Assembly: GCA_003170475.1 (NCBI GenBank)
Contig: PMZI01000014.1
Location: 89,546 to 153,545 of the forward strand
Origin: Ignavibacteriota bacterium
GTDB lineage: Bacteria; Bacteroidota; Ignavibacteria; UBA10030
Length of the DNA: 64,000 nucleotides
Direction of reading: 5' to 3'
Shown here: piece after piece, positions 42,007-60,309 of the stretch
Layout of the letters: every line of letters begins with the position of its first letter
Position numbering within the stretch: position 1 is the first letter of the stretch
Made by a program: the position numbers and the translations under genes
The notes under the pieces: model-generated
What the model was told of the DNA's origin: nothing
Databases searched by the model: none
The model's input: the letters and a program-made list of their open reading frames with translations, nothing else

Positions 42007-43065
42007 TTACTTTTTTGGGGCATTTTCTGGGCGAAGCGCGCGAACCTTCGCACCTGCTTGCCACATTTCAGAGTTTTTCCATTCATCCAGTTCCACCTGA
42101 AGCTTCTCCCGATAATCTGGAGCACCGCACGTGTCAAGAACCCGCCGGGTCTCGACACCCTGGAGTACGTCACGATAGAGCAGTTCGAACAATGGCTTGG
42201 TCGCTGCCTCAAATCGTTTCGACCAGTCGAGCGCACCGCGTTGAGCCGTGGTACTGCAGGCACCGAACATCCAGTCCATGCCGTGATTGCCAATGAGCGG
42301 ATAGAGGCTTTGCGTCGCCTCTTCCACCGTTTCATTGAACGCTTCGCTCGGTGAGTGTCCCATCGCTCTGAGTGTATCATATTGCGCTTTCATCAGGCCT
42401 GCGATAGCTCCCATCAGAACTCCACGCTCGCCAGCCAAGTCGCTGTACACTTCCTTCTCAAATGTTGTCGGGAACAGGTATCCGGAACCGATAGCGATTC
42501 CAAGTGCCAGTACGCGTTCCTTCGCCCGTCCCGTAGCATCCTGATGTACCGCATAGCTCGCATTGATGCCGCTCCCTGCGAGGAAGTTGGTCCGCACCGT
42601 TCTTCCCGAACCCTTTGGGGCGACGAGGATCACATCAACATCCAACGGTGGAACGACCCCGGTTTGTTCCTTGAAGACGATGGAAAATCCGTGGGAGAAG
42701 AACAGAGCCTGCCCTTTCTTCAAATTCCTTTTGATGATGGGCCACTGTTCCTTCTGGCCGGCGTCTGAGAGAAGATACTGTACCACCGTTGCCTTCCTGA
42801 CCGCCTCTTCAACGTCTGAGAAGAGGTTCTTTCCTTCAACCCATCCGTCGCGGACTGCATCATTCCATCCCCTTCCCCCCTTGCGCTGACCGACGATGAC
42901 GGCAATGCCGTTGTCTCGCATGTTCAGGGACTGACCATGCCCCTGAGGACCATACCCGATTACCGCGACGACTTCAGTTCGCAATTTCTCTCTGGCCATC
43001 GAAAGTGAAAATTCCTCGCGAGTAGTGATTTCTTCCGTAACACCGCCAAAATTGATGGAAGCCAT
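42007..43065 (-). CDS. ilvC: Ketol-acid reductoisomerase
   Basis: VVAVIGYGPQGHGQSLNMRDNGIAVIVGQRKG; SDLAGERGVLMGAIAGLMKAQYDTL; AFNETVEEATQSLYPLI. Confidence 0.95.
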   Translation of the reverse strand: MASINFGGVTEEITTREEFSLSMAREKLRTEVVAVIGYGPQGHGQSLNMRDNGIAVIVGQRKGGRGWNDAVRDGWVEGKNLFSDVEEAVRKATVVQYLLSDAGQKEQWPIIKRNLKKGQALFFSHGFSIVFKEQTGVVPPLDVDVILVAPKGSGRTVRTNFLAGSGINASYAVHQDATGRAKERVLALGIAIGSGYLFPTTFEKEVYSDLAGERGVLMGAIAGLMKAQYDTLRAMGHSPSEAFNETVEEATQSLYPLIGNHGMDWMFGACSTTAQRGALDWSKRFEAATKPLFELLYRDVLQGVETRRVLDTCGAPDYREKLQVELDEWKNSEMWQAGAKVRALRPENAPKK

Positions 43066-43155
43066 ATGATCTATTTCTCCTTGTTATACTTAATGTACAC
43101 AATCGTGGTTTCTAATTCATTGAGGGGGAGCTGACAGTTTCCGAATCATCGACGC

Positions 43156-44226
43156 CTACACCTTTGCCGAAAGTCTGTCAATGATCGCATCTGTCATCTC
43201 AAGTGTTGTCAACTTCCCGGCGAGGTCGGCAGTCCTGCATCCATCTGTGACAGCCCGATCCGTTGCTGTTTCGATTGCCAGCGCTTCTTGCTCAAGTCCA
43301 AGGCTGTACCGCAACAACATCGCGGCGCTCAGAATAGAACCGACAGGGTTGGCGATCCCTCTTCCGGCGATGTCGGGGGCGGACCCATGAATCGGCTCAT
43401 AGAGGCCGGGACCCTTTTCGCCAAGCGATGCCGAGGGGAGCATACCCATCGATCCAGCAAGGACAGATGCTTCGTCTGTGAGGATGTCCCCGAAAGTGTT
43501 TTCCGTGACAATAACGTCGAACATGGCCGGGGAGGTAATGAGCCGCATCGCAGCCGTATCGACCAGCATATGTTCAATGGCGACCCCGGGATTCCGCACA
43601 GCGATTTCCGATGCAATCTGGCGCCAAAGGCGCGAGGTTTCCAGGACATTTGCTTTGTCGACCGAACTCACCTTCTTTCTCCGTGACTTCGCAAGCCGAA
43701 AAGCCAGTTCGACAATGCGAACAATCTCGTAGTCATGATACACCATAGAGTCAACCGCGCGCTCCCCCGATTGATCCCTGGTGCGACCTTTCGGTTCTCC
43801 AAAATAGAGTCCCCCGGTAAGTTCTCGGACCACGATCATATCGACTCCTGCGAGTCGGTCCGGCTTGACCGGTGACGAATCGAGGAGAGCTGGATGCGAG
43901 CGAACGGGTCGCAAGTTCGCATACAATCCCAGTCCCTTCCGAATTGCCAGCAGTCCTTGTTCAGGGCGTACGGGAGCGTTCGGATTGTCCCACTTGGGTC
44001 CTCCGACTGCTCCGAGGAGCACTGCATCTGATGCCAGGCATGCCTGCAACGTCTCCTCTGTAAGCGCGGCGCCGTGTTTTTCGATCGAGCAACCTCCTAT
44101 CGGATGCTCGGTGAAAGTGAATTGGTGCCCGCCCCTTTTCGCAATACTCTGCAGCACGCGCACCGCGGATGAGGTTACTTCGGGTCCGATTCCGTCTCCG
44201 GGAAGTACTACAAGATTCGCTTTCAC
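43156..44226 (-). CDS. leuB: 3-isopropylmalate dehydrogenase
   Basis: LVVLPGDGIGPEVTSSAVRVL; LLGAVGGPKWDNP; VTENTFGDILTDEASVLAGSMGMLPSASLG. Confidence 0.96.
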   Translation of the reverse strand: MKANLVVLPGDGIGPEVTSSAVRVLQSIAKRGGHQFTFTEHPIGGCSIEKHGAALTEETLQACLASDAVLLGAVGGPKWDNPNAPVRPEQGLLAIRKGLGLYANLRPVRSHPALLDSSPVKPDRLAGVDMIVVRELTGGLYFGEPKGRTRDQSGERAVDSMVYHDYEIVRIVELAFRLAKSRRKKVSSVDKANVLETSRLWRQIASEIAVRNPGVAIEHMLVDTAAMRLITSPAMFDVIVTENTFGDILTDEASVLAGSMGMLPSASLGEKGPGLYEPIHGSAPDIAGRGIANPVGSILSAAMLLRYSLGLEQEALAIETATDRAVTDGCRTADLAGKLTTLEMTDAIIDRLSAKV

Positions 44227-44254
44227 AATTCTCCCTTAGATTTCTAGTTCGAGC

Positions 44255-45808
44255 CTATGCCAGAAGCAGTCCATATTCAACACTGTCAGCGAGCGCCTGC
44301 CAGCTGGCTTCAATGATATTTGCGCTCGCTCCGACCGTACTCCAACGCTTGACGCCGTTTTGTGTATCGATAAGAACCCGCGTCACCGCAGCGGTCCCAT
44401 TTTCGCCGTCAAGAATCCTGACCTTGTAATCCGCAAGGTGAAAATCATTCAGCGATGGATACACGGGGGACAGTGCCTTGCGAATAGCAGCATCGAGAGC
44501 GTTCACGGGACCGCTCCCATCCGCCACGGTGTGAAGAATCTCCTTCCCCACTCTGACCTTGATGGAGGCCTCTGCAAACAATCCTCGTCCCTGGCGATGC
44601 TCCACATTCACCGCGAAATCGATCAATTCAAACGGCGCCCTATATTCCGGTTGCTGCCGTTTCAAAAGCATCGCCACCGATGCTTCCGCAGCTTCAAAGG
44701 AGAATCCTTTTGCCTCAAGAGTCTTGATCGTATTCAGGACTTCCGACACTCCTGATCCCGCGGGTGCGTCAAGACCATACTCTTCGGCCTTGCTTAAAAG
44801 ATTGCCACGTCCGGAGAGTTCGGAGACGACCACTCGAAGGTGGTTTCCCACGAGAGCCGGATCGATGTGCTGGTACGATTTCTCATTTCGCCTGATGGCT
44901 GCAACGTGAATTCCCCCTTTGTGCGCGAAAGCCGACTTCCCCACATATGCCAAATGTTCGTCCGGGGACAGGTTGGCGACTTCAGCGACGAAATGAGAGA
45001 GTTCCGTCAACTTCTGCAGATTCCCCTCGGGGAGACAGTGCATACCAAGTTTCAATTCGAGGTTGGCGACGATAGACACCAGGTTCGCATTTCCACATCG
45101 TTCACCGTACCCGTTTATCGTTCCCTGAACCTGGGCACATCCTTCCGTAATCGCTGCGAGCGAATTCGCCACGGCGCACTCCGCATCGTTGTGCGTGTGA
45201 ATTCCGAGTGGGGTCGACGTCTTGCTCTTCACCAAACGAACAACAGACGCGATATCCCATGGCATGGTCCCGCCGTTCGTGTCGCACAGAACTACTGTTT
45301 CCGCACCGCCCGCAGACGCCGCCTGAACGGTGGCAAGCGCGTAGTCCGCATCCAGACTGTACCCATCAAAGAAATGCTCTGCGTCATAGATGACCCTTCG
45401 CCCCGAAGAGACCAAGAATGCCACGCTTTCCTGGATGATCCGAAGATTCTCTTCTGGAGTTGTCTGGAGCACATCGGATACGTGCATCAACGAAGTTTTT
45501 CCGACGACCGTGCAGACGCTGGTTTCTGCGTCAAGCAGAGCACGGATGTTCGAGTCGGTCGACGGTTCTCCCCCAACTCTGCAAGTTGATCCAAAAGCTG
45601 TAATGACGGAATGGCGAAGGGGAATTTGGCGTACCCGGCGGAAGAATTCCGCATCCTTTGGATTCGATCCCGGCCATCCTCCCTCAAAGAAGTCTACTCC
45701 AATTTCGTCGAGCTTGCGGGCAATCGCAAGCTTGTCGTCACAGGAGAGAGAGATACCTTCACGCTGTGTCCCGTCTCGAAGTGTAGTGTCATAGATTTCG
45801 ATTTTCAT
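44255..45808 (-). CDS. cimA: (R)-citramalate synthase
   Basis: MKIEIYDTTLRDGTQREGISLSCDDKLAIARKLDEIGVDFFEGGWPGSNPKDAEFF; CimA-type signature, second DRE-TIM synthase distinct from leuA in the same operon. Confidence 0.93.
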   Translation of the reverse strand: MKIEIYDTTLRDGTQREGISLSCDDKLAIARKLDEIGVDFFEGGWPGSNPKDAEFFRRVRQIPLRHSVITAFGSTCRVGGEPSTDSNIRALLDAETSVCTVVGKTSLMHVSDVLQTTPEENLRIIQESVAFLVSSGRRVIYDAEHFFDGYSLDADYALATVQAASAGGAETVVLCDTNGGTMPWDIASVVRLVKSKTSTPLGIHTHNDAECAVANSLAAITEGCAQVQGTINGYGERCGNANLVSIVANLELKLGMHCLPEGNLQKLTELSHFVAEVANLSPDEHLAYVGKSAFAHKGGIHVAAIRRNEKSYQHIDPALVGNHLRVVVSELSGRGNLLSKAEEYGLDAPAGSGVSEVLNTIKTLEAKGFSFEAAEASVAMLLKRQQPEYRAPFELIDFAVNVEHRQGRGLFAEASIKVRVGKEILHTVADGSGPVNALDAAIRKALSPVYPSLNDFHLADYKVRILDGENGTAAVTRVLIDTQNGVKRWSTVGASANIIEASWQALADSVEYGLLLA

Positions 45809-45820
45809 TGTCCACCCGTC

Positions 45821-46411
45821 CTATTGCCTCGACTCATACGCTGTGATTTGTTTTTCAAATCGCAGCAGGTACCCCAACTCATCCGTGCCCTCCAGAAGGC
45901 AGGTCTTGGAGAAACTGTCGATGGGAAATTCTCTCACACCACCTCCTGGCAGAAGAATAGATTGTGTCTTGAGGTCGATTGTAAATTCGGCCGTGGGATG
46001 AGCTGCAAGGAGATCACACAATTCCCGGTGAACGTCCTTCCCCACCACCACCGGAAGAACCCCGTTCTTCAGGGCATTGTTCTTGAAAATATCAGCGAAC
46101 GAAGTGCTTATGACGGCCCGAATACCCTGGCCTTTGAGCGCCCATGGAGCGTGTTCCCGAGATGACCCGCAGCCGAAGTTGTTTCCGGCGAGCAGAATCG
46201 CGGCGCCTTGGTATTCCGGGAGATTCAGTACGAAGTCCTTCTTTGGAGATCCATCCGCATGGTACCTCCAGTCGGAAAACAGGTTCGCACCGAGTCCAGA
46301 TTTGTCGGTGACCTTGAGGAAGCGCGCCGGGATAATCTGGTCGGTGTCTATGTCATCGGCGAGCAAAGGTGCCACCCGTGATGAAAAGGAGGGAAAATGG
46401 TTCATCGTCAT
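45821..46411 (-). CDS. leuD: 3-isopropylmalate dehydratase small subunit
   Basis: DDIDTDQIIPARFLK; GNNFGCGSSREHAPWALKGQGIRAVIS. Confidence 0.96.
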   Translation of the reverse strand: MTMNHFPSFSSRVAPLLADDIDTDQIIPARFLKVTDKSGLGANLFSDWRYHADGSPKKDFVLNLPEYQGAAILLAGNNFGCGSSREHAPWALKGQGIRAVISTSFADIFKNNALKNGVLPVVVGKDVHRELCDLLAAHPTAEFTIDLKTQSILLPGGGVREFPIDSFSKTCLLEGTDELGYLLRFEKQITAYESRQ

Positions 46412-46417
46412 TACCGA

Positions 46418-47836
46418 TTAGTGAGAGATCATCGTTCGCACATCAGTTATCGCTCCGGCAACGGCAGCAGCAGCGGCTGTCAGCGGAGAAGCCAGAAACG
46501 TTCGTCCGCCTTTTCCCTGGCGTCCTTCGAAATTCCGATTACTCGTTGAGACGGCATATTGGCCGGGTTCAAGCTGGTCTCCGTTCATAGCAATGCACAT
46601 CGAGCATCCTGATTCGCGCCATTCGGCTCCTGCCTGTTTGAAAACCTTGTCAATACCTTCGGATTCAGCCTGGAGCTTGACTGCCTGAGATCCCGGTACT
46701 ACGAGCGCCCGGACATTCGGTGCAACGCGCCTTCCCTTCATAATAGCTGCAGCCTGTCTCAGGTCCGATATTCGCGAATTGGTGCAACTGCCAATGAAGA
46801 CAACGTCAACAACCTTCCCGAGGAGAGGCTGGCCGGGTTCAAGCCCCATGTACTTCAGCGATTTTTCCAGCGCCGCCCGTTCAGATGCATCTGCGACATC
46901 TGACGGATCCGGGATTGACTCCGTCACTGACATACCCATCCCCGGATTTGTTCCGTACGTAATCATCGGACCCAGTGTGCCCGCGTCGATCGTGAGGCTC
47001 TTATCATAGCGCGCCCCTTCATCTGTCGGCAACTGACGCCATTGCGACAATCGCTTATCCCATTCTTGACCCTTTGGCGCGAATTCTCTCTCAGACAGAT
47101 ATTGAAATGTGATTTCGTCCGGTGCGATCATGCCCGCTCTTGCCCCGCCTTCGATCGACATGTTGCAGATGGTCATCCGCTCCTCCATCGTGAGCGCCCG
47201 AATCGCGCTTCCTGTGTATTCAAAGACGTGACCAGTCCCGCCTCCGATACCGATTCTTGCAAGGAGAGCGAGAATGACATCTTTTGCTGTCACTCCATCA
47301 ACCAGTTTACCTTCGACTCTGACTTCATAGGTGTTTGGCTTTCGCTGAAGCAGGCATTGGGAAGCGAGGACGTGTTCGACCTCACTCGTGCCGATACCGA
47401 AGGCCAGCGCCCCAAAGGCACCGTGCGTTGCCGTATGGCTGTCACCACAGACGATCGTCATTCCCGGCTGGGTCAACCCAAGTTCCGGACTGATGACATG
47501 AACAATTCCGCGCTGCGGACTCTTCATCCCGCAAAGCCGGATTCCGAACTCCCTGCAGTTCACCTCCATTTGCTCGATCTGCTTCCCAGCAACGAGATCG
47601 ACCATGGGTAACGACGGATCAGATGTCGGCACGCTGTGATCTATGGTCGCAAATGACTTGTCCTGACGTCGCACCTTCAGTTTGCGCTCCCGGAGTCCGG
47701 AAAATGCTTGAGGTGACGTCACTTCATGCAGGAGGTGCAGGTCGATGTACAACACGGCTGGAGATCCAGATTCCTGTGCAACGACGTGTGAATTCCAGAC
47801 TTTATCGAACAATGTGAGCGGCGTAGTCTTTGTCAT
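46418..47836 (-). CDS. leuC: 3-isopropylmalate dehydratase large subunit
   Basis: [55 protein letters not shown]. Confidence 0.97.
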
Positions 47837-47881
47837 TTGTCTTCTTTGCGATATTCAATCGATGAATTCAGTCGCCTGCTT

Positions 47882-49453
47882 TTACACGGCGACCGCTTTC
47901 TCCTTTGCTCCGTTTTGCTGCACATCACGACGTTTCTTCGCGCTCATTGCACGATTCAGAGCCTCGAGATAGGCCTTCGCACTTCCGGTGATGACGTCGG
48001 TGCTCACCGCGCGACCATTGAACATCACCCCATCGAAATCAACACGAACAAAGACCTCGCCGATGGCATCGTGTCCAAATGTGACAGATTTGATCGAATA
48101 CTCCGTTAGTTTCCCGATTTCTCCGGTAATTCGTTCGATCGCTTTGTAGGCGGCGTCGACAGGGCCATCCCCTGTTGCGGAGTCAACGAAGCGTTCATCG
48201 CGTAGTCGCAACTCAATGGTCGCCGTGGGTCGCAGGTTCGTGCCGCTGAAGATCTGCAGGTTCTCAAGGTGGTAGAATTCATCAGCGGAACTCTCACGGT
48301 CTTCAACAATCGCTATCAAATCTTCATCGAAGATGTCCTTCTTCTGATCAGCAATCGTGCAAAAAGTCTGATAGGCTTGTTCCAGTTCCTGATCGGAGAG
48401 TTCATATCCGAGTTCTGCGTATCGCTGCTTCAAAGCGTGGCGACCCGAGTGCTTTCCAAGTACGAGCGTACTGTGCTTGATGCCGACGGACTGCGGAGTC
48501 ATAATCTCATAGGTGATCCGACTCTTTAACATTCCATCCTGATGAATTCCAGCTTCATGCGCGAAAGCGTTCGCGCCGACGATCGCCTTATTTCGCTGCA
48601 CCATCATGCCGGTCAACGTCGTAAGGAGTTTGCTGGATTTGTAGATCTCTTCGGTGTTGACATTGGTATCAAGCCCAAGCGTTTCTTTGCGGGTCCTGAT
48701 CGCCATGACGATCTCTTCCAGAGCTGCATTGCCTGCACGCTCTCCGATGCCATTGATCGTGCATTCAATCTGCCTGGCTCCGTTGCGAATCGCGGCCAGG
48801 GAGTTTGCCACGGCCAGTCCGAAATCGTTGTGACAGTGAGAACTGAAGACAATGTTCTTCGCATGAGGAACGCGTTCTCGCACGATCCGGAACATGGCGC
48901 CATATTCTTCCGGAATCGCATAGCCGACGGTATCAGGCAGGTTGATGATGGTCGCACCCGCTGCAATCGCCGCACCAACGATCTCACAGAGATATTCTAT
49001 ATTGCTGCGCGAAGCGTCTTCGCAGGAGAACTCCACCTCATTGCAGAGCGATTTGGCATGTTGAATCGCCCCGACAGCGTCATCCAAGGCTTGCTGGCGG
49101 GTCTTCTTGAGCTTATGAGCCAGATGGATGTCTGACGTCGCAATGAACGTGTGGATACGGGGCTTCTTCGCATATTGAATCGCCTCCCAAGCCCGGTCGA
49201 TGTCTCGTTTCACCGTCCGGCAGAGGGCGGCAACCGTGCAGTACTCGAGGGTTCGGGCGATCAAATGGACGGCCTCAAAGTCACCGACAGAGGCAATCGG
49301 AAATCCCGCCTCGATCACATCTACCCGGAGCAACTCAAGTTGACGAGCCATGCGCACTTTTTCTTCCAGGTTCAGGCTGCAACCCGGTGATTGCTCGCCA
49401 TCGCGCAATGTCGTATCAAATACAGCGATCCGCTCTTCCATAGCCTTTGTCAT
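47882..49453 (-). CDS. leuA: 2-isopropylmalate synthase
   Basis: [48 protein letters not shown]-terminal allosteric domain. Confidence 0.97.
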
Positions 49454-49489
49454 TCCTTTAATGATGAGTTAGAGAGAACAATTCCGATT

Positions 49490-52400
49490 TCAAGATCGTA
49501 CTCCGACAGCCGACCCGACCACCACACCTGGTGGAGATAATGAAAGGTTTTGAAGTTTTGGGACGACTTTCCAAAACATAGGCTGATATTCTGTCCAATT
49601 CAGCAAGATCTTCTGAGCGCGCTCGCTCGAGGTGCTTTCGACATACTGATAGATGATTGATTGGAGCACGCGGACGTCTTCGCCGTCAACGAGACGATCG
49701 TACTGAACAAGCTCTGTATTGCACCGCCTGGAAAAATCGCCAAGGAAGTCCAGAACATATGCCCTTCCACCTGTCATCCCTGCTCCAAAGTTTCTGCCGA
49801 CGGTGCCGAGAACAACCACAGTTCCATTCGTCATGTACTCGCAGCCATGATCACCAACTCCCTCGACGACCGCCAGAGCCCCGCTGTTGCGAACGGCGAA
49901 CCGCTCTCCCGCCCGACCGCAAGCATAGAGTGTTCCCCCCGTCGCACCATAGAGCACCGTGTTTCCCACAACAACATCGTAGGTAGAATCGGCTCGTTGA
50001 CGCAGAGGCATGACGACAATCTCACCACCACTCATCCCCTTGCCGACATAATCGTTGGCTTCACCTGTAAGAATAAGCCTTACCCCACGAACGAGGAACG
50101 CACCAAAGCTCTGCCCGGCGCTGCCCGCAAACCGCAACTCAATCGTGTTGGGAGGCAGACCGAGATCACCATAGAGATATGCGATTTCGCCCGAGAGTTT
50201 CGTTCCAATGGAGCGATGGATATTGCGAATTCGATAACTTCGCACGAGCGGTGTTTTGTCCCGAAGCGCGTCTTTCACATCCTGGAGAATGGTGTCATCT
50301 AATGGCTTGTCAGGTTTGTCATTTCGATACCAGACTCGAAGACGCTGGTCTCTCTCATAATCGCGCCGAGCGAGCACGCGGCTCAGATCGACGGTATTCG
50401 CCTTGGAGTGATCCGTAATCGCCCGCTGCTTCAAGAGATCGGTCCGCCCTACGATTTCATTCAAAGAACGGAATCCCAACTCAGCAAGAATCGCTCTCAC
50501 GTCCTCGGCGACGGCATCCAGATAACGAATCAACATTTCAGGCTTTCCCCCGAATCGGGCTCGCAGTTTTTCATCCTGTGTCGCGATGCCAACGGGGCAT
50601 GTATTGAGATGACATTGGCGAACGTAGCGACAGCCGAGCGCAATCAGAGCAGCAGTTCCAAAATTGAATTCTTCCGCGCCAAGCATGGCAGCGATGACAA
50701 TGTCCCGACCCGTCTTCAATCCTCCATCAACCCGAATGGTCACCCTTTCCCTCAACCCGTTCATCACGAGCACTTGCTGCGCCTCTGCCAGTCCCAGCTC
50801 CCACGGACCACCGACGTTCTTGATCGAACTCAGAGGTGAAGCTCCGGTCCCTCCCTCATGTCCACTGATCAGAATGACATCAGCGTATGCCTTCGCGACT
50901 CCGGCGGCGATCGTGCCCACTCCCGCCTCCGACACGAGCTTGACACAGACTCGTGCCCGGGGATTTGCCTGCTTCAAATCGTAGATGAGTTGGGCCAGAT
51001 CTTCAATGCTGTAGATATCGTGATGCGGCGGAGGTGAAATCAATGCTATGCCGGGAACCGCTTTCCGCAATCGGGCGATCAACGGGGAAACCTTATTGGC
51101 CGGAATTTGTCCGCCTTCACCAGGTTTTGAGCCCTGCGCCATCTTTATTTCGAGTTCCTTGGCACTCGCCAGATACTCAGCCGTCACGCCAAATCGCGCG
51201 GAGGCGACTTGCTTGATGGCGCTGTTCGACGAATCACCATTGGGCTGGACACGAAAACGTTTGGGATCTTCACCCCCTTCACCGCTATTGCTCTTGCCTC
51301 CAATCCGATTCATTGCAATGGCAATCGTTTCGTGAGCTTCGGGCGACAGAGAGCCGAGCGACATTGCTGCAGTTGTGAATCGCTTCCGGATTTCCTCAAT
51401 CGGTTCCACGTCCGCCATGGGAATCGCAGAATTCATTTTCTTAAACTCAATCAAGTCCTTGATTCCGATTGGACTCGTATCTCCCAGGGCTTTCTTGAGA
51501 TGATCGAATTCCTCCTGAGCTCCTTTTGCTGAGAGGTTCTGCATCGCTCGTAGGGCTTCAGGAGACCAAGCATGACGCTCACCATGCTTGCGAAAACGAT
51601 ACTGACCGTCGTCGCGAAGTTCCGGCTTCTCCGACTGAAAGGCACGAGTATGACGTTCGAGGGCTTCCCGCGCAATTTCACGCAACCGCAGGCCTCCGAT
51701 GCGCGTCGGAGTCCCAGTGAAATACTTCTCAACGACTTCCTCTGCGATGCCGATCGCCTCAAAAATCTGCGCACCGCGGTATGAGCCGAGCAACGAGATG
51801 CCCATTTTCGACATGACCTTGAGAAGCCCTTCATCGATGGCCGTGCAGAAGTTCGCGCAGGCCTGGTCAAAGGAAAGATCGGAACCTGTTTCATGAGCAA
51901 CCAGTGAGCGAATGCTTTCAAATGCGAGATATGGGTTCACCGCATTCGCCCCGTATCCAAGAAGCGTCGCAAAATGATGCACGTCGCGTGGTTCGCCAGT
52001 TTCTGCTACGACACTGAGCTTGAGACGTTTGTTGCGTCGCAACAGATGATTGTGCACTGCTCCAACGGCCAGAAGAATTGGCATTGGCGCATGTGCAGCA
52101 TCCACGCCGCGATCGCTCAAGATGATGAGAAACTTACCCTCATCAGCCGATCTTTCAGCCGCTGAGCACAAGTCATCCAGTGCGCGGTGCATCCCATCTT
52201 CTCCCTCAGAAGAGCGGAACAGCACACTCAGAGTCGCACTTTGATACCCTGGATCTTCGAGAGAGCGCAATCGCTCCAACTCGGCATTGAAGAGCATCGG
52301 GCTCTCGAGTTCCACTTGCCGGGAGTGTTCCTCAGTTTCTCCGAACCAGTTGCGCCGAGGGCCAAGTTTCGTCGTTAAGGACATCATCAGGCGTTCACGG

Positions 52401-53980
52401 ATCGGATCAATCGGCGGATTCGTCACCTGAGCAAATTGCTGTCTGAAATATGACGGGAGAAGTTTCGGGATCTTCGAGAGAATTGCCAGCGGCGCGTCGT
52501 CTCCCATCGAAGCAATAGGTTCCTTTGCTCCGTGCATCATCGGCTTAACAATAGTCGCGAGTTCCTCTGTGCTGTAACCGTAGCAAAGCTGAACTCGGAC
52601 CAAAGTATCCCGGTCCAAGGGGCTTCGATCATTTTGAACGTTTCCGCTCAATGAAGGAAGCTTTGTGATGTTTCGGACCCACTGAGAATAAGGCTTCTGC
52701 GCTGCGATTTCGTTCTTGATGTCAAGATCCCTCATCAAGATTCCCCGCACAGTGTCTACGGCGATCATTTGACCGGGACCCAACCGACCCTTCTCAACAA
52801 CAAGCGCGTCATCCAGCTCGAGCGCGCCGGCTTCAGAGCTCAGCGCGATAAGCCCAGTCGATGTGATCTTGTACCGTGCCGGACGTAATCCATTTCGGTC
52901 GAGCGTCGCAGCAACAATGTTTCCATCGCTGAAGACCAACGCCGCAGGTCCATCCCAGGGTTCGCTGAAACACTCGTTATACTCATAGAAGTCCTTAACC
53001 TGCTGATTGATGTCATCGCGGGATCGCCACGCCTCCGGGACGAGCATCATCATCGAGTGCAGCACATTTCTCCCGGACAGAGTCAACGCCTCAAGGGCGT
53101 TATCCAGATTAGCAGAATCGCTCCCTCCCGGCTGAATGAGCGGTTTGAGCATCTTTACATCCTCACCCCAGTAGTCAGAGGCGATATCCGCTTCGCGCGC
53201 GGCACTCCAGATGCGATTTCCCTGAATGGTATTGATCTCTCCATTGTGTGCCAGCATCCGAAACGGCTGCGCCAGATTCCACGTCGGGAATGTGTTGGTG
53301 CTATAGCGCTGGTGATAGATGGCAAATGCTGATTCAAACAGCTCATGCTGAAGATCAGGATAGAACCGATCCAAGGCCGTGGCGATCATGAGACCCTTGT
53401 AGACAATCGTCCGACTGGAGAATGAGCAAATGTAGAAATCTCTTATGTCTGTCTTCAGAAGATGCTTTTCAATTTCCTTTCGGACGAGATAGAGTTGACG
53501 CTCGAACTCCATCCCTGACACATGTCTTGGTTTCTTGACGAGTATCTGCTGTACTCTCGGAGAAGTCAACGCAGCGCTTTCTCCAATAACGGAGACATCG
53601 AGTGGGACCCTTCGCCAGCCAAGAACGCCCAGCCCTCTCCGTGACACGGCATGCTCCACGAGCGCCTTGCACAATGCGTAGGAGTCCTCGTCCTGAGGCA
53701 TGAAGAGCATCCCCACACCAAGATCAGCGCTATCATCGATTCGCTCCGACAGGCCGGACACCTGATCGGCAAAGAAACGGGCAGGAAGCTGAACCAAGAT
53801 ACCGGCGCCGTCGCCGGTCTGTGTGTCAGCGGCAACCGCGCCGCGGTGCGTCAAATTGCACACCGACCGGATTGCCTGTTGGACAATCTCGTGCCTTTTT
53901 TCACCGGCGATGCTCGCCACGAAGCCGGTTCCGCAGGCATCGTGCTCGAAGCGGGGGTCATATAGTGGGAAGCGATTCAA
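49490..53980 (-). CDS. gltB: Glutamate synthase large (alpha) subunit
   Basis: [102 protein letters not shown]. Confidence 0.97.
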   Translation of the reverse strand: [1496 protein letters not shown]

Positions 53981-53996
53981 GTCTCTGCAATCCTGT

Positions 53997-54545
53997 TTAC
54001 ACTTCGCCCTGAAATTCGCGTTTCAAAGCAACACGCCCTGTCCGGGCCAGTTCCTTAATGCCGAACGGCTTCAGCATCTTGATGATGGCATCCACTTTCT
54101 GCTGACTCCCTGTAGATTCCAGGGTCACCGATCGCGGACTGATGTCGACGATTTTCGCCCTGAAAATCTCAGCAATCTGCATGATCTCCGGTCTGGTGGA
54201 CTGCGTGGTTTGCACCTTCACAAGAACAAGCTCACGGTCGACAAAATTCTCAAATGTCAGGTCGACCACCTTGAGCGTGTCGATCAATTTGTTCAATTGC
54301 TTTGTAATCTGTTCGATGATTTGATCGTCTCCCCGCGTCACGATCGTCATGCGGGAGACATCTTCTTCTTCCGTTGGTCCGACAGAAAGACTATCGATGT
54401 TGTATCCCTTCGCGGCGAACATGCCCGCGATGCGGTTGAACGCACCAAATTTGTTCTCTACGAGAATGGAGATCGTGTGCCGCTTATAATGTTCGGTCTC
54501 CTTTGGCTCGGAGCCGCTCTTTGGAGGATGTTCTATATGTGACAT
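53997..54545 (-). CDS. ilvH: Acetolactate synthase small (regulatory) subunit
   Basis: HTISILVENKFGAFNRIAGMFAAKGYNIDSLSVGPTEEEDVSRMTIVTRG; ACT domain. Confidence 0.95.
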   Translation of the reverse strand: MSHIEHPPKSGSEPKETEHYKRHTISILVENKFGAFNRIAGMFAAKGYNIDSLSVGPTEEEDVSRMTIVTRGDDQIIEQITKQLNKLIDTLKVVDLTFENFVDRELVLVKVQTTQSTRPEIMQIAEIFRAKIVDISPRSVTLESTGSQQKVDAIIKMLKPFGIKELARTGRVALKREFQGEV

Positions 54546-54573
54546 GCTTTTGCCCTCTTGTTGAATGCGTGAA

Positions 54574-56346
54574 CTATCCTTTGACGACTGTCATCAGTGA
54601 TTCTTCCGGCACACCGTTCGACGGCTTCAACACCGGATCAGGCATATCGAGGATCTCATTGACGGTCTGTCCCGACGGAATCATAGGATAGACATTGTCC
54701 TCTTGCTCGACAACGAATTCAACGAATACCGGTCCATCCTTGTGCGCAAGCGCCTTCCTGATCACGTCCTCCACATCGGACGAATGCTCCACTCTGTATG
54801 CGGTACATCCATATGCCTCAGCGAGCTTGACGAAATTTGGATTCGAAAGCCCAACGTGTGAGTATCGCCTCCGCCAGAACAACTCCTGCCACTGGCGCAC
54901 CATACCGAGGAACCCATTGTTGATGACAAAGATCTTCATCGGAAGTTTATGTTCGACGACCGTCGCCATCTCCTGGCTGTTCATTTGAAAGCCTCCGTCG
55001 CCGCTGATCGAGATGACGGGAAGATCCTTGCGTCCAAAGCTGGCGCCCATTGCCGCCGGAAGGGAGAATCCCATTGTTCCTAAACCGCCGGAAGTGATGT
55101 GGGATCGCGGATGGATCCACTTGAAGAACTGAGCTGTCCACATTTGATGCTGACCGACATCCGTGACAACGATAGCATCGCCGCCAGTAATCTCGCCGAG
55201 TTTCTGGATCACATACTGGGCACGGATGGCGTCACCACTCCTATAGCGCAGCGGATGTTCCTTTTTCCATTGCTGAATTGTGGCGAGCCAGTCCTTTGTA
55301 TCGAGCCGCTGCACCATTTCATTGAGCTGTTTCAAAACACGTTTCACATCACCAACGATCGGAACGTCGACTTTCACGTTCTTGCTTATGGCGGATGGAT
55401 CGATGTCGATGTGGATTTTCTGCGCCTCGGCAGCGAATGCTTCCACTTTGCCCGTAACGCGATCGTCAAAACGTGCACCCACAGCAATCAGCACGTCGCA
55501 ATAGCTGACCGCCACATTCGAGTACCATGTGCCGTGCATTCCCAGCATCCCCATGGCAAGCGGGCTGTTCTCAGGAAAAGCTCCGAGTCCGTGCAGCGTC
55601 GTTGTCACCGGACACTGCAACGTCTCAGCGAGTTTGCGAAGTTCCGGAGCTGCGTTCGATTGAATAGCTCCTCCACCGACGTAGAGCACGGGACGTTTTG
55701 CAGTGCTGATCACTTCTGCAGCCTTCTTGATCTGCTTTGGATGCCCTTCAACCACCGGCTTGTAGCTTCGAACTTCGACCGACTCCGGATAATGGAATGT
55801 CGTTTTGTGCGCCATGACGTCTTTCGGCAAATCCACCAGAACTGGTCCCGGCCTCCCTGTTGACGCGATATAGAACGCCTCCTTCACTGTTTTTGCAAGT
55901 TCCTTCACGTCGCGCACAAGATAGTTGTGTTTGGTGATTGGTCGGGTAATTCCCACAATGTCCGCCTCCTGAAAGGCATCGTTCCCAATGAGCGGAAGCG
56001 ACACCTGTCCCGTGAAGACGACAATCGGGATGGAATCCATGAATGCATCGGCAATTCCAGTGACGGTGTTCGTCGCACCCGGACCAGAAGTCACGAGAAC
56101 TACTCCGGGCTTTCCCGTCGCTTTGGCATATCCTTCGGCGGCATGGGTTGCTCCTTGTTCATGCCGAACAAGCACATGCTTGATGTCCGAAAGGTCGACA
56201 AGAGCATCATAGATACCGATCGTCGCACCGCCGGGATAACCAAACACCACCTCTACTCCTTCTGCAACAAGGCTGCGGACGAAGATTTCCGCCCCCGTCA
56301 TCATCCTGCCCTGTTTCTGTGTACCCGTCGCCTTTTGCGTTGACAT
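54574..56346 (-). CDS. ilvB: Acetolactate synthase large (catalytic) subunit
   Basis: VEVVFGYPGGATIGIYDAL; HEQGATHAAEGYAKATGKPGVVLVTSGPGATN; GDGGFQMNSQEMATVVEHKLPMKIFVINN. Confidence 0.97.
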   Translation of the reverse strand: MSTQKATGTQKQGRMMTGAEIFVRSLVAEGVEVVFGYPGGATIGIYDALVDLSDIKHVLVRHEQGATHAAEGYAKATGKPGVVLVTSGPGATNTVTGIADAFMDSIPIVVFTGQVSLPLIGNDAFQEADIVGITRPITKHNYLVRDVKELAKTVKEAFYIASTGRPGPVLVDLPKDVMAHKTTFHYPESVEVRSYKPVVEGHPKQIKKAAEVISTAKRPVLYVGGGAIQSNAAPELRKLAETLQCPVTTTLHGLGAFPENSPLAMGMLGMHGTWYSNVAVSYCDVLIAVGARFDDRVTGKVEAFAAEAQKIHIDIDPSAISKNVKVDVPIVGDVKRVLKQLNEMVQRLDTKDWLATIQQWKKEHPLRYRSGDAIRAQYVIQKLGEITGGDAIVVTDVGQHQMWTAQFFKWIHPRSHITSGGLGTMGFSLPAAMGASFGRKDLPVISISGDGGFQMNSQEMATVVEHKLPMKIFVINNGFLGMVRQWQELFWRRRYSHVGLSNPNFVKLAEAYGCTAYRVEHSSDVEDVIRKALAHKDGPVFVEFVVEQEDNVYPMIPSGQTVNEILDMPDPVLKPSNGVPEESLMTVVKG

Positions 56347-56404
56347 AAATGATCCTCTTGTTGTTGGATGAGACCCAATTCACAATTTCGAAATCTCATA
56401 TTCG

Positions 56405-56486
56405 ATCTCATTGAAGCGTCCCGCCGTTCTGGTGACAGCGGGACGATCCGATCCGCATGTTTTGCGGATGGCCCATTCAATGAGAT
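56405..56486 (-). other. Candidate three-way-junction RNA element at the ilvD/ilvB junction
   Basis: Three perfect nested helices: P1 11 bp (56405-56415/56476-56486), P2 8 bp (56417-56424/56438-56445), P3 7 bp (56451-56457/56463-56469); P1 contains the ilvD stop codon. Confidence 0.65.
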
Positions 56487-58165
56487 TTCTGTTCGTTCGT
56501 AGACAGATCTGTCACAGCACCAAGACTGCTACTGGAAACCAGCCTGGCGTACTTTACCAGTGCACCTCTGGAGTATCTGGGCGCAGGCGACCGCCATGCC
56601 GATCGGCGTTGCTCGAGTTCCTGATCGGAAATGTTGAGCTGCAGCAACCGTTGTTCAGCATCAATGGTAACGCTATCGCCTTCCTTAACGAATGCAATTG
56701 TTCCGCCAACAGCCGCCTCCGGGGCAACGTGGCCAACAACCATTCCATAGGTTCCCCCAGAGAACCGGCCATCGGTGATCAGGCCAACCGAGTCGCCGAG
56801 TCCAGCACCGATGATGGCAGACGTCGGAGCAAGCATTTCGCGCATGCCCGGCCCCCCCTTTGGACCTTCGAATCGAATCACTAGTACATCTCCAGCCTTG
56901 ATGTGACCCGCGAGAACTGCCTCCAGGCATGCCTCCTCGGAATCGAATACCCGAGCCGGCCCTGTGATCTTCGGATTTTTAACACCCGAGATTTTTGCGA
57001 CGGCGCCTTCGGTTGCGAGATTACCTTTGAGGATTGCGAGGTGACCTTGCGCGTACAGCGGTTTGTTCCACGGGCGAATGACGTCCTGATCGCTTCGAGG
57101 TTCTGCAGGAATATCGGCGAGCGCTTGCTCAATGGTTTTGCCGGTGATTGTCAAGGCATCGCCGTGGAGAACGCCATGTGCCAAAAGAATCTTCATGACC
57201 TGGGGAATTCCTCCAGCCTTATGCAAATCGGTGATGACGTACTTGCCTGAGGGTTTCAGATCGCAGATGACGGGGACGCGAGTGCGTATGTCCTCGAAAT
57301 CATCGATCGTCAAAGGAACGTCGGCTGAATGCGCAATTGCGAGAAGGTGGAGGACAGCGTTTGTTGACCCACCCACAGCCATGACAACAGCGATGGCATT
57401 TTCAAACGCTTTGCGGGTAAGGAGCTGGCGCGGCAGGATTTGGTCTTGTACAGCGTGTGCGAGGACTTCTGCAGACTTGGCCGTACTCTCACCTTTCTCC
57501 AAATCCTCTGCCGCCATGGTGGATGAATACATGAGACTCATTCCCATCGCTTCAATCGCCGACGACATCGTATTGGCCGTGAACATTCCACCACAGGAAC
57601 CCACCCCCGGGCAGGCGTGGCATTCAATTTCACGAACCTCAGCTTCTGTGGCCTTTCCTGCACTGTGTTGCCCAACGGCCTCGAAAGCGCTCACAATCGT
57701 GAGGTCTTTGCCGTGCAGGTTCCCGGGTTTGCTCGTTCCACCGTAGACAAATATCGATGGGATATTCATCCTGGCCATCGCGATCATCGCACCCGGCATG
57801 TTCTTGTCACATCCGCCGATGGCGATGAGGCCATCCATCGCTTGTGCGTTGCAAACCGTTTCGATTGAATCAGCGATGACCTCCCTTGAGACAAGAGAAT
57901 ATTTCATCCCCTCCGTTCCCATCGAAATGCCGTCACTGACAGTGATGGTTCCGAAGACTTGCGGCATCGTGTTGGCAGCCCGAAGGGCTTCCATCGCCTT
58001 TTCAGCAAGATCGTTCAGCCCGATGTTGCAGGGAGTCAGATTGCTGTAGCCGTTTGCAACCCCGATGATAGGCTTTAAAAAATCTTCATCGTTGAAGCCA
58101 ACAGCGCGCAGCATTGCGCGATTGGGGGTTCGTTCGATCCCTTTTTTGATAAGATCACTTCGCAT
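56477..58165 (-). CDS. ilvD: Dihydroxy-acid dehydratase
   Basis: [91 protein letters not shown] before ATG. Confidence 0.97.
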
Positions 58166-58166
58166 C

Positions 58167-58277
58167 GTTCACCTTTCGCAATTAGAACAAAACATTCTGT
58201 TCGCCAGAGGTGAACCAGCTTTACCAGGTTGTGTTACAGGGTGTTAAGAGTTTGGTATGCTCGGTTGGCCTCTGGCG
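58167..58277 (-). promoter_or_regulatory. Candidate ilvD translational attenuator (alternative helices including an anti-SD)
   Basis: A (58263-58277) pairs with C (58202-58216), 13 of 15 positions; C also contains GTTCACCT, exactly complementary to the ilvD SD AGGTGAAC (58167-58174). Confidence 0.6.
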
Positions 58278-58281
58278 TCTT

Positions 58282-58425
58282 CTAGGCAATAATAAAAAGC
58301 CCGAGAACCAGTAGGCTAACGAGAATAAGGAGGATGCTAAGCAGGGAAATCGCTCTGAATGGTCGGACTTCACCGAGGCCGGTGTTGACCAAACGAATTG
58401 CAGCGATATGTTGGAGGATTTCCAC
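58282..58425 (-). CDS. Candidate branched-chain-amino-acid leader peptide (47 codons, GTG start uncertain)
   Basis: VEILQHIAAIRLVNTGLGEVRPFRAISLLSILLILVSLLVLGLFIIA*; 16 of the last 22 residues are I, L or V; lies between the predicted promoter and ilvD. Confidence 0.5.
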   Translation of the reverse strand: MEILQHIAAIRLVNTGLGEVRPFRAISLLSILLILVSLLVLGLFIIA

Positions 58426-58453
58426 TTGATTAAGGTAAAGTGCTTGCCTTTAC

Positions 58454-58481
58454 AATATAGCATTTATTTTGGGGTTGTCAA
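58454..58481 (-). promoter_or_regulatory. Sigma70-like promoter of the ilv-leu operon
   Basis: Minus TTGACA (58481-58476), 16 nt, TATATT (58459-58454). Confidence 0.7.
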
Positions 58482-58686: not shown

Positions 58687-58761
58687 GAAGCAGAAGAAGG
58701 ATTTTACCGCAAACACTTTGGAGCCAGACAGCAGAACAAGAAAATAGAATTACATACGCCT

Positions 58762-60309
<1,548 letters not shown>

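Follow-up and report, generated by a model that had tools for sequence, protein, structure and literature searches.

The BCAA (Ile, Leu and Val) operons ilvGMEDA, ilvBN and leuABCD of E. coli are controlled by ribosome-mediated transcription attenuators, and leader peptides that sense amino acids are known mainly from transcription attenuation. Translational attenuators are found at the antibiotic-resistance genes ermC and cat, where the arrest of the leader is drug-dependent. The leader of S. aureus ilvD is a transcriptional BCAA attenuator (PMC5794164). According to a 2010 survey, leader-peptide systems had, ermC apart, been known only from Proteobacteria and Actinobacteria before Firmicutes joined the list (PMC2965389). 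In the LEU element, which belongs to leuA of actinobacteria, it is the run of Leu codons that pairs with the Shine-Dalgarno sequence (SD) around a pseudoknot, and its authors argue against attenuation (PMC1262725). The ilvD motif WRC-18-2 is reported only in Veillonella and is a weak riboswitch candidate (PMC8632094). No amino-acid leader-peptide attenuator with translational output was found described for Bacteroidota in the open-licence literature.

In this study, we analyzed a 64-kb stretch of DNA (the window), which contains on its minus strand a candidate translational attenuator ahead of a biosynthetic operon. The features are as follows, all on the minus strand.

58163-58481: candidate translational attenuator, ahead of a ten-gene Ile/Val/Leu operon
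58454-58481: promoter of sigma-70 type, TTGACA (58481-58476), 16-nt spacer, TATATT (58459-58454)
58282-58425: leader ORF of 47 codons, GTG start at 58425, TAG stop at 58282, C-terminal run with I/L/V at 16 of 22 residues
58344-58425: 5' leader hairpin P0, GTGGAAAT..ATCGCT (58425-58402) with AGCGATTTCCC (58354-58344), apical CACCGG/CGGTG (58384-58371)
58308-58320: segment 1, GTTAGCCTACTGG, within the I/L/V codons, complementary to A and coevolving with it
58263-58277: segment 2, or arm A, CGCCAGAGGCCAACC, starting 4 nt past the leader stop codon
58218-58260: distal A:C hairpin, GCAUACC (58260-58254) with GGUAAAGC (58225-58218), variable loop
58202-58216: segment 3, or arm C, GGTTCACCTCTGGCG, complementary to both the SD and A
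58185-58202: inner helix of the putative sequestor, GAACA (58202-58198) with TGTTC (58189-58185)
58163-58174: segment 4, the SD AGGTGAAC (58174-58167) and the ilvD ATG (58165-58163)
42007-58165: operon ilvD-ilvB-ilvN-gltB-leuA-leuC-leuD-cimA-leuB-ilvC, from ORFs and Pfam or inspection

As in ermC and cat, a stalled leader ribosome is predicted here to free the SD of the downstream gene, but the signal would be an amino-acid shortage sensed at the codons, in contrast to drug-dependent arrest. The element shares an Ile/Leu/Val-rich leader peptide, exclusive helices and a full BCAA operon downstream with the transcription attenuators of E. coli and S. aureus (PMC5794164); in those, however, the 3:4 hairpin is an intrinsic terminator, whereas here, in another phylum, it is predicted to hide the SD and start codon of ilvD. 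A leader ORF with Leu codons and an SD pairing before a BCAA gene are also seen in the LEU element (PMC1262725), but the partner of the SD in the present element is the distinct segment C, which A would release. The translational T-boxes of actinobacterial ileS (PMC1262725) likewise respond to tRNA charging, as we infer for this element, and possess an SD sequestor rather than a terminator, but a T-box binds the tRNA directly and has no leader peptide. WRC-18-2 (PMC8632094) is similar in being a structured RNA upstream of ilvD. The attenuator element gave no match above gathering score to Rfam families, and no match to the T-box covariance model even at E<=5.

The promoter described by the sequence-only reading, TTGACA-N16-TATATT, is present with 11 of 12 consensus matches in its boxes, and most relatives have TTGACA/TATATT-like boxes at the equivalent place. 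Within the operon, ilvB, ilvN, gltB, leuA, cimA, leuB and ilvC were identified by Pfam, and ilvD, leuC and leuD were named by sequence inspection. The leader heads the entire Ile/Val/Leu pathway together with a glutamate synthase, a possible source of the amino donor. On the plus strand, a divergent sulfhydrylase-like gene (58825-60309) carries a SAM riboswitch (Rfam RF00162, 68.8 bits; 58760-58882) at its 5' end and is followed by an aspartokinase/homoserine dehydrogenase fusion; the same riboswitch was found in L002 and L020.

IlvD searches were performed in 61 related genomes and the upstream DNA was then inspected. A total of 42 homologous leaders were found in one Bacteroidota order (Ignavibacteria-like relatives), 36 of them before ilvD, five before gltB and one before cimA. 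In the family of the window, the element is present in 21/21 genomes with an ilvD match and in 0/11 without one (Fisher 8e-9, relatedness uncorrected); a weak ilvD match in G015, with no leader, was discarded. Three ilvD genes of the same order (L007, L018 and L019) do not have the element. The covariance model R1, built on the A..C hairpin, matched in about 40 genomes of this order, and among its stronger matches in 395 genomes of Bacteroidota no convincing member lay outside the class. Among 64 named ilvD loci it recovered only two members, L104 and L120, and matches at L068, L069 and L080 were rejected as chance inverted repeats without a leader. The R1 matches away from ilvD, before gltB (L061-L064, L066) and before cimA (L065), all display the full anatomy; judging from these loci, gltB or cimA with its own promoter region can have its own copy of the element. 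None was found upstream of hisG in five genomes, or upstream of leuA and cimA inside the operon. A small inverted repeat, CACTTTATC-AAGGTAAAGT, lies directly before the hisG start codon (1338) in five genomes (L197-L201) and resembles the CACTTTACC that the BCAA leader has in its 5'UTR.

The 47-codon Ile/Leu/Val-rich ORF proposed earlier is present in the window, with the translation VEILQHIAAIRLVNTGLGEVRPFRAISLLSILLILVSLLVLGLFIIA, and its start and stop lie at homologous places in all 42 leaders, in which its length is 42 to 51 codons. The start codon is GTG in 23 leaders and ATG in 19, which resolves the earlier caveat about the start; a clear SD is absent in the relatives too. The spacing from the stop to the GCC of A is 3-8 nt in 42/42 leaders. 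Over the last 22 residues Ile, Leu and Val average 65%, compared with 24% over the remainder of the ORF; their share is 26% and 4% in the other two frames, and 27%, at most 32%, in shuffled DNA. The leader is a short ORF enriched in codons for the end products of the operon.

A hydrophobic C-terminus, with a Kyte-Doolittle value of 3.2 in the window leader, might also denote a functional small membrane protein, the RNA helices being independent of its translation, and this caveat had been raised before. It does not agree with the cimA leader (SSIIRITAPSLSLASPSIYSIG), which keeps Ile codons without being hydrophobic (5 I, 2 L and 0 V in the last 22 residues; Kyte-Doolittle peak 1.05), nor with L013, where the peak is 1.70. 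Moreover, the stop-to-A spacing is fixed, the ORF belongs to no Pfam family, and the interrupting Asn or Ser of the I/L/V run (VNLL, VSLL) is encoded by AAC or AGC of the mRNA inside the segment that pairs with A, a residue that neither a pure codon run nor a membrane helix would need. We regard a membrane protein as extremely improbable. The codon content of the leader appears to track the pathway, because the cimA leader is Ile-biased and the product of citramalate synthase (cimA) is an isoleucine precursor. Ile, Leu, Thr and Pro are abundant in the gltB leaders of the f6 family.

Coevolution of the pairings was evaluated on 29 leaders less than 75% identical, by comparing cognate duplex energies with those of 20,000 partner reshufflings. 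Three pairings coevolve, A:C (z=-7.5, p<5e-5), C:SD (z=-4.5, p<5e-5) and segment 1:A (z=-3.3, p=0.001), with exact p values that are optimistic, as the permutation keeps column make-up but not phylogeny; none of 13 control segment pairings was significant in the same leaders (p 0.13 to 0.97). The inner C:SD helix gave z=-3.8 and p=2.5e-4 over all leaders, and z=-1.9 and p=0.034 in ilvD leaders alone; it is altered on both sides in relatives (GAACG/CGTTC, CGGACA/TGTCCG, CGGAT/ATCCG). Double changes in the A:C helix were counted in 14 cells vs 4.4 in shuffles (0/500), from an alignment not fitted to the structure. Others join segment 1 to A (TTAACCTC/GAGGTTAA vs TTAGCCT/AGGCTAA) and C to the SD (GTTCACCT/AGGTGAAC vs GTTCGCCT/AGGCGAAC). 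The sequence-only reading had pointed to relatives for covariation in A:C and C:SD beside a conserved I/L/V ORF, and the outcome is positive throughout.

Arm A is near-invariant across the 42 leaders, and segment 1 lies about 40 to 21 nt 5' of the stop in most of them. In the distal A:C hairpin, ACC/GGU and GC/GC recur, though its columns align poorly. Both arms were located as described earlier, and GTTCACCT in C complements the SD exactly. Among 35 gene starts of the window, the SD region of ilvD is the most complementary to C (-20.3 vs a mean of -8.6 kcal/mol), a level reached by 0.35% of random 22-mers. The RNA from A to the start codon folds with z = -3.2, and 0/200 shuffles were equally stable. 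A third small hairpin, AACCTG/CTGGTT, which had been suggested to compete for C, is mismatched in the window and is not kept in relatives; it was dropped from the model. Segment 1 pairs with segment 2, the 2:3 and 3:4 pairings are conserved and mutually exclusive, and the stop codon is placed just before segment 2. This 1:2, 2:3, 3:4 topology is that of trp-type attenuators, with 3:4 as a predicted sequestor of the SD and start codon, not a terminator.

The arms of P0 coevolve as strongly as A:C (z=-7.4, p<5e-5, 29 leaders). P0 is predicted in nearly all leaders, spans the first two thirds of the ORF from the start codon, and repeatedly leaves a CAUA stretch unpaired near codon 6. Another 5' pairing, CACTTTACC from the 5'UTR with GGTAAAGC, is good in the window and was rejected as not conserved elsewhere. 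The strong coevolution of P0, its unpaired CAUA and the partly conserved distal GCAUACC/GGUAAAGC would also suit an RNA that binds a ligand or protein, with P0 and the A:C hairpin with its internal loops as the sensor and the ORF being secondary. However, P0 lies within codons, all 42 leaders retain both the I/L/V codons and the place of the stop, and Rfam offers no match, and we find such a sensor highly unlikely.

Classical transcription attenuation, in which one hairpin would be an intrinsic terminator and A:C the antiterminator, has in its favour that the topology is that of trp and ilv attenuators. In the same genus, trpE of the sister genome G001 (L196, about 1095-1425) has a Trp-Trp-Trp leader (SQWWWRG) followed by a terminator-like hairpin with a T-tract, by its sequence an ordinary-looking transcription attenuator. 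L011 possesses a T8 tract (1410-1450) near C, behind a possible short CCTCT/AGAGG stem in C, and might combine the SD lock with a terminator or replace the lock by one. However, no intrinsic-terminator-like site was found on the minus strand of the window, which bears out the lack of a U-tract noted before, and a U-tract directly behind the hairpins is absent in most leaders. Furthermore, the 3' side of the 3:4 hairpin is made up of the SD itself, which coevolves with C; a classical attenuator would have an intrinsic terminator with a U-tract in its place. Transcription attenuation at this locus is therefore considered very unlikely.

We assign a probability of about 0.86 to a ribosome-mediated attenuator that has a topology like that of trp and would act on the initiation of ilvD translation. 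Directly observed are the conserved ORF, three coevolving and mutually exclusive pairings, and recurrence before three BCAA-linked genes. The earlier model is supported with three additions, namely segment 1, an inner C:SD helix that often takes in the start codon, and the 5' hairpin. Three states were folded for 30 leaders with the ribosome footprint removed, and median expected base pairs were taken. With a stalled ribosome, 12.5 pairs were predicted in A:C and 0.1 in C:SD; with a ribosome at the stop and 12 nt masked, 0 and 11.5, respectively. In the untranslated state, segment 1:A has 9.1 pairs and C:SD 5.5. When only 9 nt were masked at the stop, A:C was still favoured in 8/30 leaders. 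In 7/30 leaders, C:SD was retained at equilibrium despite a free A, so that folding order during transcription would have to favour A:C; kinetic folding, with A and C made before the SD, would decide in these seven leaders.

The leader probably senses a shortage of Ile, Leu and Val by means of a stalled ribosome and then uncovers the ilvD ribosome-binding site. When these amino acids are plentiful, the leader ribosome would reach the stop and hide segment 1 together with the 5' end of A, while C would pair with the ilvD SD and start codon (OFF). When charged BCAA tRNA is scarce, the ribosome would stall in the codon run on uncharged tRNA and cover segment 1, leaving A free to pair with C and the SD exposed (ON). 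If the leader is not translated, segment 1 would tend to hold A while C closes the SD, and untranslated RNA is predicted to be mostly OFF, given the segment 1:A pairing. The direct target of the SD control is ilvD only; if ilvD is left untranslated, polarity or decay would reduce expression of the genes that follow it in the operon.

P0 may pause the polymerase, or admit only a first ribosome before closing. It is a tentative proposal, with the odds against it, that translational attenuators specific for amino acids occur as a class throughout the order and would be the first reported from any lineage of Bacteroidota. In this proposal P0, lying over the start codon, would admit essentially one pioneer ribosome before folding, and each transcript would be switched a single time, much as happens in transcription attenuation. 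The translational attenuator supported here makes a case for asking how such a switch handles repeated rounds of leader translation. It would supply an RNA family absent from Rfam and, for an uncultured lineage, predicts that the BCAA pathway as a whole is under such control; evolution would here have kept the trp-like logic of three pairings, with a lock on the ribosome-binding site taking the place of the terminator.
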